A stretch of 64,000 bases of DNA, from NCBI RefSeq assembly GCF_003333305.1, contig NZ_QOLD01000095.1, positions 1 through 64,000 of the forward strand, written 5' to 3'. Every line of letters begins with the position of its first letter. Position 1 is the stretch's first letter. Position numbers and translations under genes: made by a program. The stretch comes from Candidatus Colwellia aromaticivorans. Its GTDB lineage: Bacteria > Pseudomonadota > Gammaproteobacteria > Enterobacterales > Alteromonadaceae. Below the pieces are notes generated by a model. The model searched no databases. It was not told where the DNA came from and saw nothing but the letters and a program-made list of their open reading frames with translations. Below are positions 27,182 through 55,839 of the stretch, in pieces.

Positions 27182-28016
27182 ACTCAGCGCTATTCAACTT
27201 AATTCTACGCCAAATGTTGAGCAAAATATTGATGCTATTGCTAAGCAGTTGGCAAGGTTAACGCAAACATCAAACAGTGCTAATGTTGAGCATATTGTTG
27301 TGCTGCCAGAGTGTTGTTTGTTTTTTGGTGCTAGTGATCAGGCGCAGTTATCATTAGCTCAGCAATCAAAAAGTAGTTCAAAAGGTAATAATGAACTGCA
27401 GCTATCCTTAAGTCAGTTAGCCAAGCAATATAAAGTTACCCTTATAGGCGGAACCATTCCTATAGTCACTGAAGGTGGGGATAAGTTTACTAATACCTGC
27501 TGTGCTTATAATTCACTCGGTGAACTTATAACTAGTTATGATAAAATTCATTTGTTTGATGTGAATGTCGCAGATAGTGAAAAAACTTATTATGAATCCC
27601 GTTATACTCAAGCTGGCAATAAGGCTTGTATAGCAAAAACACCATTAGCGAATATTGGGTTGTCGGTATGTTTTGATATTCGTTTTCCATTATTGTATCA
27701 AAAGCTTAGAGAGTTAGGGGCGGATATTATCACCGTGCCTAGTGCCTTCACTCGTGTAACAGGTAAAGTACATTGGCAAGCACTGTTGCAAGTAAGAGCT
27801 ATTGAAAACCAAGTTTATATTATTGCTGCGGGACAAGAAGGTGTGCATGCTAACGGTCGAGAAACATGGGGGCATTCAATGATCATAAGCCCTTGGGGTG
27901 AAATATTGACCTGCCTTGAGCAAGGTGAAGGAATAGTTACATGTGATTATATTCCCTCAGAAATACAGAGAATACGAACAAGTATGCCATTAATACCAAA
28001 TGAAATAATGAATTAG
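27174..28016 (+). CDS. Carbon-nitrogen hydrolase (Nit-family amidase)
   Basis: A nitrilase-superfamily protein of 280 residues. The Glu-Lys-Cys triad is visible in VLPECCLFFG, YDKIHLFDV and GLSVCFDIRFP. The KIHLFDV and CFDIRFPLLYQKLRELGA sequences are typical of the Nit1/Nit2 branch, which repairs deaminated glutathione or acts as an omega-amidase. I start at ATG 27174, which overlaps the yhdP stop; an in-frame GTG at 27162 is an alternative. The yhdP-nit-tldD order recurs in gammaproteobacteria. Its stop codon lies in a long hairpin. Confidence 0.92.
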   Translation: MVKLSAIQLNSTPNVEQNIDAIAKQLARLTQTSNSANVEHIVVLPECCLFFGASDQAQLSLAQQSKSSSKGNNELQLSLSQLAKQYKVTLIGGTIPIVTEGGDKFTNTCCAYNSLGELITSYDKIHLFDVNVADSEKTYYESRYTQAGNKACIAKTPLANIGLSVCFDIRFPLLYQKLRELGADIITVPSAFTRVTGKVHWQALLQVRAIENQVYIIAAGQEGVHANGRETWGHSMIISPWGEILTCLEQGEGIVTCDYIPSEIQRIRTSMPLIPNEIMN

Positions 28017-28050
28017 TCAATTCATTATTTCATTTGGTATAAGGCATACT
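27981..28050. repeat. 70-bp long inverted repeat over the nitrilase-gene stop codon
   Basis: The two 22-base arms at 27993-28014 and 28019-28040 are perfect complements around a 4-nt loop (AGTC). A second pair outside them (AGTATGCC at 27981 and GGCATACT at 28043) is also perfect. The element covers the last twelve codons and the stop. The arms end in ATACCAAAT/ATTTGGTAT, resembling the ends of the 159-bp repeats. It lacks a T-run, so it is more likely a mobile palindrome or mRNA-end stabiliser than a classic terminator. Confidence 0.85.
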
Positions 28051-34398: not shown

Positions 34399-34591
34399 AT
34401 ACCCGATCCACTTGAACATGCTCGTTTCAGGAAGTCTGAGTCGCTCAGCCTTCCCCAAGGGGCTGGTTTAGAAACGCTTTAAGCTGCGTTATTGATTTCG
34501 ATAAGGAGACAACCATTCTCATCAATCAATGCCTTGCTTAAAGACGTTTCTAATTCCAGCTGAATCATGCATCTTCAAGTGGAACGGGTAT
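34399..34591. repeat. 193-bp MITE-like element between rapZ and ptsN
   Basis: The ends are 18-bp inverted repeats with one mismatch: ATACCCGATCCACTTGAA on the left and TTCAAGTGGAACGGGTAT on the right. The interior holds GCGTTATTGATTTCGA, then ACAACCATTCTC, then AATCAATGCCTTGC. These core sequences also occur in the 312-bp element at 45119-45430. Its right end is nearly identical to the 45-bp palindrome at 55795-55839. No open reading frame is convincing, so it is a non-autonomous element. Confidence 0.88.
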
Positions 34592-41547: not shown

Positions 41548-41864
41548 TAGGGTCTGTTGATCTTTCGATATTGTTTTTGCAGCTATTTATTGGGTCTTTA
41601 TACAAGGCAGAGCCTTTGTCATGTGGTGGTTCAGGACAATATGCTCCTGCATTGTCCATATAAGCTACATCCATGTAGCGTCACATAAAAAGGCGATAAC
41701 GCCGTAAAAATGACCAACAAACGCTGTCCGAAGGATTCGGCTAAAAGCGTTTTACTCTTTGTTGAGTAGTATTTGCTTAGAGTGACTAGGCTACACACCA
41801 CTCGCCGCGATTAAAATGCTTTTATCTCGAACAAAATTTAACCTCGAAAGGTCAACAGACCCTA
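41548..41864. repeat. 317-bp MITE-like element between yrbG and mlaF
   Basis: Near-perfect 21-bp inverted ends (one mismatch) begin TAGGGTCTGTTGA and close TCAACAGACCCTA. The interior has no convincing gene. It contains, at 41631-41680, a two-hairpin module with the palindrome GCTACATCCATGTAGC, which occurs in the opposite orientation inside the unrelated 312-bp element at 45300-45348. The rest of the 658-bp gap (41865-42173) must hold the mla promoter; I could not define its -10/-35 boxes. Confidence 0.88.
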
Positions 41865-45118: not shown

Positions 45119-45430
45119 ATACTCATAATACTTCAAAATGTCTGTTTCAGGACGCTTGAGCGACTCATGATCAAGGCGCTTGTTTTTATTAATGGTTGCT
45201 CCCTTAAAAAAAGGAGCAACGATGAGCGTGATTTGCTCATACGTCCCCGCAGGGCGAGTTTAAAAGGCTTATATGCGACGTTATTGATTTCGACAATGGC
45301 GCTACATGGATGTAGCTTACTAGAGAATGCAGGAGCACATTCTCCTGAACAACCATTCTCTTTAATCAATGCCTTGCCTCTAAGCCTTTTAATTCTCGCT
45401 GAAACGAGTATTTCGAGGTAATATGAGTAT
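45119..45430. repeat. 312-bp MITE-like element between mlaC and mlaB
   Basis: The ends are imperfect inverted repeats of about 32 bp, starting ATACTCATAATACTTCAAAA on the left and finishing GAGGTAATATGAGTAT on the right. The centre has ACGTTATTGATTTCGA and, further on, ACAACCATTCTC and AATCAATGCCTTGC, shared with the 193-bp element at 34399. Between them is a nested two-hairpin module (45300-45348) with GCTACATGGATGTAGC. It fills the whole mlaC-mlaB gap. Weak reading frames on both strands of the element are not believable genes. Confidence 0.88.
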
Positions 45431-45439
45431 ATTGAACGT

Positions 45440-45736
45440 ATGACAATAATATCCTTAAATATCACTACTACGCCAGTTGAACTTAGTGGTGAGTTAACCC
45501 GACATTCTATTATGCAAATAACAAAAGAAAGCATTAAAGCCTTATTTTTACCCTCATCAACTACACTTGATTTAGCACAAATAACGCGAATAGACACCGC
45601 TGGATTAGCTTGGCTTTTCTATTTATTAGAACAAGCAAATATTGAGGGCTGTCAATTATCTTTTGTTAACATACCCACTAAACTAGATAAACTCATTCGC
45701 TTAAGTGGCGTTGAGGGCTTTTTGCCAGTTCAATAA
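45440..45736 (+). CDS. mlaB: STAS-domain protein MlaB
   Basis: A 98-residue STAS protein with the motif LDLAQITRIDTAGLAWLFYL. MlaB binds MlaF and is needed for stability and activity of the ABC complex. Its ATG lies ten bases after the right end of the 312-bp repeat element and has no strong Shine-Dalgarno site, so expression may have been changed by the insertion. Confidence 0.93.
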   Translation: MTIISLNITTTPVELSGELTRHSIMQITKESIKALFLPSSTTLDLAQITRIDTAGLAWLFYLLEQANIEGCQLSFVNIPTKLDKLIRLSGVEGFLPVQ

Positions 45737-45738
45737 TA

Positions 45739-45897
45739 ATACCAATTAAATTAATTAAGGGGTCAAATTTTAATGAAGATAAATTTTCAAGAACAAGGCG
45801 CTTGATTGACCAATAGCTGGCTATTGGGATTGAAAGCAACAATGTTATTGGATATTTAGACCATTTAAAAAGATCACTTAGTTAGTTTGATTGGTAT
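45739..45897. repeat. 159-bp MITE-like element, copy 1
   Basis: Inverted ends are ATACCAATTAAA and TTTGATTGGTAT (11 of 12 match). The whole sequence is nearly identical to 53821-53979, which is exactly the same length. It fills the gap between the mlaB stop (45736) and ibaG. A short palindrome (CAAGTGATTCATTAATTCAC, then TTG) follows directly. Confidence 0.93.
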
Positions 45898-45954
45898 AAG
45901 ATCAAGTGATTCATTAATTCACTTGGTGTAAATAACCAGATTGAGGAACGACTC

Positions 45955-46206
45955 TTGGAAGTACAAGAAATTGAAAAACTAATTAACGACGCACTAACGC
46001 TTGATGAACTTCAAGTTAAATTCGACGGTTCACAATGTAGTGTTGTCGCGGTAGCTGATATGTTTGGTGATTTATCACGTGTTAAACGTCAACAAGTGGT
46101 ATTTGCAACGTTAGCAGATGCTATTAAAGACGGAAGTATTCATGCTGTTACAGTAAAAACCTTTACTAAAGCACAATGGCAACGTGATAAATTGTTTAAT
46201 ATGTAA
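45955..46206 (+). CDS. ibaG: BolA-family protein IbaG
   Basis: An 83-residue BolA-like protein with FDGSQCSVVAVADMFGDLSR, then VKRQQVVFATLADAIKDGSI, then HAVTVKTFTKAQW. The conserved Cys and His can share an Fe-S cluster with a monothiol glutaredoxin. The start is TTG at 45955, preceded at about eight bases by TGAGGAA; there is no in-frame ATG that keeps the family N-terminus. It lies between mla and murA, as in E. coli. Confidence 0.94.
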   Translation: MEVQEIEKLINDALTLDELQVKFDGSQCSVVAVADMFGDLSRVKRQQVVFATLADAIKDGSIHAVTVKTFTKAQWQRDKLFNM

Positions 46207-46226
46207 AGGCATGTAATACTGGTTAT

Positions 46227-46266
46227 ACTCAAGTTACTTCAAAATGCATTTTGAAGTAGCTTGAGT
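46227..46266. repeat. 40-bp near-perfect palindrome between ibaG and murA
   Basis: The 20-base half ACTCAAGTTACTTCAAAATG is followed by its own reverse complement with a single mismatched pair. The half-site matches the terminal repeat of the 312-bp element at 45119, so this looks like a solo or internally deleted form of that family. It could also act as a hairpin in the ibaG-murA transcript. Confidence 0.9.
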
Positions 46267-46309
46267 CTATATAGTCAATTTATTTTATTCATTTATAAGT
46301 AAGAAGTAA

Positions 46310-55735: not shown

Positions 55736-55773
55736 CCCGTTCATCCTGAGCGCGAGGCACGAGCAGTCGAAGG
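55736..55773. repeat. CCTTCGAC-type repeat, minus orientation
   Basis: Reads CCCGTTCATCCTGAGCGCGA on the + strand and finishes CAGTCGAAGG, the long variant of the dispersed element with an internal hairpin. It lies in the convergent gap between the GspA-like gene and leuD. Confidence 0.85.
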
Positions 55774-55794
55774 ACAACTCGTAACTCAATACTT

Positions 55795-55839
55795 ATACCC
55801 GTTCCAGCTGAATCATGCATCTTCAAGTGGAGCGGGTAT
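55795..55839. repeat. 45-bp palindromic element after leuD
   Basis: ATACCCGTTCCA at the left pairs with TGGAGCGGGTAT at the right (11 of 12). The interior GCTGAATCATGCATCTTCAAG is identical to the right end of the 193-bp element at 34399-34591, so it is a solo-end version of that family. It begins four bases from the leuD stop and may act as its terminator or 3' stabiliser. Confidence 0.88.

Follow-up and report, generated by a model that had tools for sequence, protein, structure and literature searches.

The window, that is, the whole stretch of DNA analyzed here, comprises bases 1-64000 of contig C10 in a 3.75-Mb draft genome of 101 contigs. As listed in Table 1, it contains two long repeats, three solo palindromes, and two further MITEs. 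A preliminary description had singled out four of these repeats, and all four are real, with boundaries one or two bases off from the earlier positions. The longer repeat, described at first as a 312-bp element, measures 310 bp between its flanking dinucleotides and has TIRs of 32 nt that are 78% complementary; placed from the consensus fold (see below), its left hairpin spans about 45150-45246 and its right hairpin with the cassette about 45254-45400. The second, described as a 193-bp element, measures 191 bp between its dinucleotides and has TIRs of 33 nt that are 85% complementary. The proposal that the two long copies share a core was borne out by blastn alignments of 80% over 56 nt and 75% over 69 nt.

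Table 1. Repeat features of the 64,000-bp window
Feature	Position	Strand	Basis
Full-length element, TACTCA end class, 48-bp-type cassette in right-hairpin loop	45120..45429	+	TIRs, consensus fold
Double-hairpin cassette, 47 nt plus one ambiguous base, at right-hairpin tip (entry L091 2101)	45300..45346	-	
Solo palindrome, 42 bp, end to end	46226..46267		Inverted-repeat search: 46224-46269, 91% complementary
Element, TACCCG end class, most of left hairpin missing; right hairpin without cassette	34400..34590	+	
Solo, 43 bp, TACCCG class; left end fused to right arm at TTCCA	55795..55837	+	
Further solo, 46 bp, TACCAAATG end class, at stop codon of upstream frame	27994..28039		
157-bp MITE, TACCAATT ends (IS630-type end class), no family core	45740..45896		
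MITE of another family, ends AGGGTCTGTTGATC (read by eye), cassette at 41633-41680	41549..41863	-	

Three observations concern the surroundings of these features. The 157-bp MITE is present in genome G034 and absent in G016 and G036. A CATCCTGAGCGCGAGGCACGAGCAGTCGAAGGA stretch at 55737-55790 adjoins the 55795 solo, has a diverged form in G034, and may be another repeat. Near the site of the 46226 solo, L096 (from G016) and L097 (from G024) carry the end of a small gene followed by duplicated pieces of itself, upstream of a gene that we take to be murA-like.

The element family and its folded core

Both long repeats, of 312 and 193 bp, are members of a single MITE-like family of high copy number. 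From this genome we extracted 91 complete, TIR-bounded copies and 16 cores without an end pair, and the total of element copies in the genome is well over 100. The core pattern GCAAGGCATTGATTGAAGA, at up to 2 mismatches, gave 85 + 88 matches in this genome and 0 in the control, while a looser core pattern gave 200 matches against 54 in its control. Across the order, GCAAGGCATTGATTGAAGA was matched in 45 of 247 genomes and 24 of 87 genera, mostly with few matches each; outside the genus, seven genomes had 9 to 15 core matches, mainly variants such as GCAAGGCATTGATTGCAGT. Copies fall into discrete length classes of about 262, 311, and 359 bp. Among 90 copies (L003, whose ends are weak, was left out of the counts of length, TA flanks, and end agreement), 50 measured 259-264 bp, 30 measured 308-312 bp, and 6 measured 358-363 bp, with single copies of 164, 191, 245, and 414 bp.

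We also scanned for end-paired elements in a 464-kb sample made up of the window and 20 stretches of 20 kb chosen by position. The scan returned 34 elements, compared with 5 in the reversed sequence and 2, 0, and 1 in Markov sequences. In G009, a single-contig genome of which 800 kb of 5.4 Mb was scanned, 40 end-paired elements were found, 23 of them with the core, against 10 in the reversed control; one of three matches below 70 bp there had family ends. When the gene context of 35 elements was inspected, 31 lay between two genes and 3 overlapped a predicted frame of at least 120 aa. The intergenic elements occupied 17 co-directional, 10 divergent, and 4 convergent gaps, as against 144, 54, and 44 such gaps overall, with no clear bias by raw counts. 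A search of the window with Rfam 15 at the gathering score matched 23S and 5S rRNA only, and no described RNA family for the elements. The literature on MITEs and repeats in Colwellia, Pseudoalteromonas, and Shewanella/Vibrio yielded no such elements by title or start of abstract, in a coverage that mostly excludes subscription journals; PMC4853749 contains the words Colwellia and miniature inverted-repeat.

The consensus fold, derived from 120 distinct copies (87 from this genome and 33 from other genomes of the genus), is a three-way junction of a terminal stem, a left hairpin, and a right hairpin. Before folding, we removed 3 of the 90 copies of this genome that were below 255 bp, 4 of 40 relatives' loci lacking an end pair, 2 loci from outside the genus, and one further row. 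In alignment columns, the terminal stem pairs 1-30 with 234-263, the left hairpin occupies 31-127, and a 2-bp stem precedes the right hairpin at 135-233; 93.1% of the cells in the 100 pairs are paired. Compensatory change, defined as at least 3 double-sided changes, was seen at 58 of the 100 pairs, compared with 16-24 for slid partners and a mean of 26.7 (maximum, 31) after shuffling, a comparison that favors the fold over the controls because it was tested on the alignment from which it was deduced. At least two Watson-Crick types occur at 20 of 26 pairs in the terminal stem, 28 of 36 in the left hairpin, and 9 of 36 in the right hairpin. Selection acting on a folded strand, or replication that corrects palindromes, may maintain such pairing.

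We considered whether a strand preference marks the elements as RNA. G-U cells outnumbered A-C cells in the left hairpin (225 versus 65) and in the right hairpin (149 versus 77), compared with 97 versus 120 in the terminal stem, and one pair per hairpin (43-115 and 162-204) supplied 93 and 108 of those cells. Counted by pairs, the ratios were 19 versus 10, 4 versus 9, and 7 versus 13 for the left hairpin, right hairpin, and terminal stem. We make no RNA claim, since single pairs dominate the cell counts and the by-pair counts differ.

Insertion at TA and candidate transposases

TA flanks both sides of 70 of the 90 copies and at least one side of all 90. Five of the window's core elements and solos (two long, three solos) were aligned, and each has empty orthologous sites in close relatives. 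The site is empty in G034, G016, and G024 for the 312-bp copy, in G034 and G016 for the 191-bp copy, in G034, G016, G024, and G036 for the 46226 solo, and in G034 for the 55795 solo. At the latter two sites, the empty form has one dinucleotide, which reads CA in G034, and the filled form has two TAs. The family thus has the matched TIRs and the TA target duplication of MITEs of the IS630/Tc1-mariner kind. The 27994 solo is common to G016 and absent in G034, G024, and G036; in the present genome, the frame at whose stop codon it lies reads on for a few codons to TAG.

The preliminary description had called for a transposase recognizing ATACCCG or ATACTCA ends. Matches to PF13358 (IS630 family) numbered 45, in 14 of the 39 genomes of the genus. 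G021 has several IS630-family copies of about 1.1 kb with TACCAATTCCGATAATT ends, and contig C31 of the present genome has a frameshifted 984-bp copy with TACCAATTACATTAATT ends. TA stands on both sides of the C31 copy and on one side in the listed G021 pairings with family-type ends. These IS630 copies have ends of the type that the window's 157-bp MITEs carry, close to those of core elements in the TACCAA class, which makes them candidates for the cognate transposase of that class, their ends being of the same type and not identical over the entire repeat. Neither 30 of the 45 IS630 loci nor 1.59 Mb of retrieved loci, counted with their overlaps, yielded a transposase with TACCC or TACTC ends. 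The search was thus answered for TACCAA ends only, and for the TACCC and TACTC classes, both long copies of the window among them, we infer the IS630 assignment. One locus, L264, was taken up as a 2.1-kb TACCC-ended element and turned out to hold two copies with ordinary reading frames between them: two diverged full elements (248-556 and 2070-2376) with a duplicated flank enclose unrelated frames, and their right hairpins are unlike the core of this genome on both arms.

Taken together, these data point to non-autonomous MITEs that insert at TA and were, with good probability, moved in trans by IS630-family (Tc1/mariner-like) transposases. Such transposases would bind TACC/TACT-type terminal repeats, and the end classes described below would be lineages matched to different transposases.

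End classes and solo palindromes

The long forms had been described as a two-family system with different ends. Instead, one core bears at least six end classes, namely TACCCGYTCC, TACCCATGAT, TACCCAAnnn, TACTCATGAT, TACCCGTGAT, TACCCGTAAT, and several TACCAA types. When these were mapped on a tree of the interior, from which the ends had been excluded, 13 changes were required, compared with a minimum of 8 and a shuffled mean of 52.1. The end classes follow the interior tree and are therefore lineages that have diverged, with ends swapped in a few cases rather than exchanged freely. Left ends agreed with the right ends of their copies at 1767 positions, compared with 1353 when the right ends were shuffled, and none of 2000 shuffles was as high, an agreement inflated by the picking of end pairs for complementarity.

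Long and solo forms make up one system, as had been suggested, and the 55795 palindrome does correspond to the ends of the 193-bp element (97.5% over 40 nt with its right end). The 46226 palindrome had likewise been derived from the terminal repeat of the 312-bp element; it is of the same end class but is not that element's own end, with which it agrees at 76% over 42 nt (E 0.009). The two have TACTCA and ACTTCAAAATG in common, and the block between differs (AGTT versus TAAT). Only two end-to-end palindromes of the 46226 kind occur in the genome.

The sequence of the 55795 solo records how it arose. Its left end, TACCCGTT, runs into the right-arm foot, CCAGCTGAATC, so that the foot CCAGC of the right hairpin is retained without its partner; the join lies at TTCCA, which is found in both arms of full copies. 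Because its halves differ by this orphan piece, the inverted-repeat search gave no pair at 55795. This solo thus descends from a full element that lost its interior through a deletion at a 5-base microhomology shared by the two arms. Deletion of the core, the proposed origin of solos, is borne out for 55795, with its orphan foot and microhomology junction; a descent of 46226 from its 312-bp neighbor is not supported. Deletion may also have given rise to the 191-bp form and the remaining solos.

The 55795 solo gave 87 matches in 18 of the 39 genomes of the genus (hand count), of which 58 were right ends of full copies, 57 starting with CTAATTCC and one with CAAATTCC. The fused junction [CT]CCG[CT]TCCAGCT accounted for 19 of the 87 matches, in 9 of the 39 genomes, with 5 in the present genome; 3 others (G011, G012, and G018) had a different junction, CCCGTTCCACTT, and 7 were variants of uncertain type. 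Since the same fused junction stands at 19 places, at some of which the flanks were checked, in nine genomes, the 43-bp deletion product has multiplied and is a self-spreading element. The solos hint that about 42 bp is the smallest size at which such a transposase can still move an element. As to whether solos are commoner and older than the long forms, they are not commoner: the 34 end-paired elements of the 464-kb sample comprised 15 core copies, 5 solos below 70 bp, and others of intermediate length or from other families, in a scan whose threshold the 46226 and 55795 solos fall under. They can nevertheless be old, given the one lineage in nine genomes.

Two other readings of the palindromes were weighed. 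If solos were ancestral, the long forms would have grown by the addition of hairpins at palindrome tips, as cassettes are added today, and both the presence or absence of cassettes exactly at hairpin tips and the nearly perfect end-to-end palindrome of the 46226 solo fit such growth. The unpaired right-hairpin foot of the 55795 solo, on the other hand, makes sense only as a remnant, and the 464-kb sample includes shorter forms of 156-219 bp, three of them with the left-hairpin motif and no core; we consider growth unlikely. The palindromes could also be REP-like units moved by a Y1 transposase, with the long forms as mosaics. Palindromes and mosaics are typical of REP/BIME sequences, and Y1 (PF01797) matches occur in 27 of the 39 genomes of the genus, four of them in the present one. 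REP sequences with a RAYT, however, are short hairpins without TA duplication that are accompanied by a RAYT gene, whereas here the matched ends are long and TA stands on both sides in most copies. The RAYT once suggested as a mover also found no counterpart at the loci: no family ends were seen at 30 of 61 Y1 matches, in a scan aimed at cassette hairpins with family ends judged from the flanks of 11 loci, and a single weak match to the cassette hairpin (3 mismatches, L243) was recovered. We regard a REP/RAYT origin as very improbable and retain that of TA-inserting MITEs with solos formed by deletion.

Loop cassettes and comparison with known systems

The cassette is a 47- to 48-nt unit, AGGASAATATGCTCCTGCATTSTC-TAATAA-GCTRCATCCATGYAGCG, that forms two hairpins. 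It sits at the tip of the left or right hairpin of core elements (the loop being assigned by reading the flanks) and also in other families, such as the MITE at 41549-41863. We list 47 cassettes, 46 from this genome and one from G038. Their orientation is constant wherever the host hairpin is recognizable by eye, and TC precedes every one, a feature partly built into the search pattern. The varying pair of the first stem is G-C in 27, C-G in 9, and T-A in 7, with one mismatch and 3 unreadable; that the cassette was copied from the host stem was rejected, as host and cassette stem types do not go together by eye. An identical 47-mer occurs in the left loops of L020, L003, and L194 and in the right loop of L031; the window MITE and L152 have a 48-mer in common. 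In public records the exact cassette hairpin was found in 71 stretches, mostly from Colwellia, Litorilituus, or Alteromonadaceae, the others being one unplaced Gammaproteobacteria MAG (several stretches) and one Aliivibrio MAG. A second cassette type, made up of an ATCCAT-loop hairpin and a larger one, adjoins GCAAGGC in two or more MITE families (L225 at ~15620, L229 at ~6421, and L231 at ~5298).

Cassette presence is unlinked to the ancestry of the elements. On the tree of 87 copies from this genome, for which cassette detection missed at least one 312-bp row, the 14 left-loop carriers required 13 changes (13.3 when shuffled), the 23 right-loop carriers 21 (20.7), and the 6 carriers of the second type, at a third site, 6 (5.9). 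In G009, cassettes occur in 5 of 22 core copies, and the long-length label (4 of 22 rows, a small sample) required 4 changes against 3.8 shuffled; the nearest pair of different length there differs at 15 of 260 positions. In the present genome, L155 matches L161 at each of their 262 shared bases and lacks one further base, and only L161 has the cassette. Within a clade of 11 near-identical copies, 5 have no cassette, 2 a left one, and 4 a right one, and the cassettes differ in sequence and leave no scar; misassembled repeats in the 101-contig draft could mix such states. No direct repeats were seen at the cassette borders, which makes precise loss through slippage unlikely. The routes left are insertion, conversion from one copy to another, and single-strand transposition, and the 48-bp cassette would enter separately from the element.

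Gene conversion or template switching among copies, with covarying stems produced by quasi-palindrome correction, could account for both gain and loss of the cassette. In its favor, L090 1581 is a chimera of half a core element, the cassette, and half an element of the 41549 family with AGGGTCTGTTGATC ends; L228 6479 is another chimera; the cassette of L161 has mixed arms; and in L047 a base ~25 nt past the cassette is changed to a form common in other classes, as expected of a conversion tract. Set against this, identical cassettes stand in left loops, in right loops, and in another family with little flank in common, and a donor for L161 had to be identical to L155 at all 262 shared bases. 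We give conversion slightly less than an even chance. The cassette might instead be a mobile unit of its own, with single-stranded hairpin loops as its target, a single orientation, no target duplication, and a scarless exit. It does show the scarless insertion without target duplication of IS200/IS605-type mini-elements, and no Y1 transposase with its ends was found at the 30 loci scanned; a Y1/IS200 partner, sought among 30 of the 61 Y1 matches (2 of the 4 in this genome), was rejected on the one weak match. We view an independently mobile cassette as possible but rather doubtful. If it were so, these would be two-tier transposons, with TA-inserting hosts and loop-inserting guests, and the cassette would be a parasite of MITEs. 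The near-identical copies with and without it let one ask directly what enters hairpin loops and whether single-stranded DNA is what it targets.

As a MITE family with solos derived by deletion, the elements are of a known kind; what is unusual is the loop cassettes. The common view of bacterial MITEs is that of simple ISs with internal deletions; in this case, a single genus has a large MITE set with several end classes, a compensated folded core, self-spreading 43-bp solos, and guest cassettes. The literature on inserts and hairpin loops yielded no such elements by title or start of abstract. For the cassette alone, the nearest likeness is to PATEs, which derive from IS200/IS605 and share with it hairpins, the absence of target duplication, a fixed orientation, and scarless presence or absence. 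It differs from them in being only 48 bp long, in having the hairpin tip as its site, and in the lack of a matching-end Y1 transposase at 30 loci.

As far as their descriptions in the cited sources go, three further systems are comparable. The Correia elements or NEMIS of Neisseria are likewise folded, with long and short forms that differ by a 50-bp internal sequence (PMC2229807), whereas the 48-bp Colwellia cassette occurs in two loops and several families, with a second cassette type at a third site. BOX elements of Streptococcus pneumoniae are also modular repeats with a variable inner part, in which the number of inner modules varies between loci and strains (PMC3049150), but they are tandem boxB arrays with other ends, and the Colwellia cassettes are single inserts at hairpin tips. 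The nearest precedent is RUP of S. pneumoniae, a 107-bp element of 108 copies with TIRs and TA, for which movement in trans by IS630-Spn1 was proposed from TIR similarity (PMC2229807). The likeness lies in small TIR elements at TA with an IS630 acting in trans (PMC2229807, PMC3049150); the difference is that RUP is a simple 107 bp, the account in PMC2229807, as far as it is accessible, mentioning no two-hairpin core, end classes, or loop cassettes of the kind that mark the Colwellia family.
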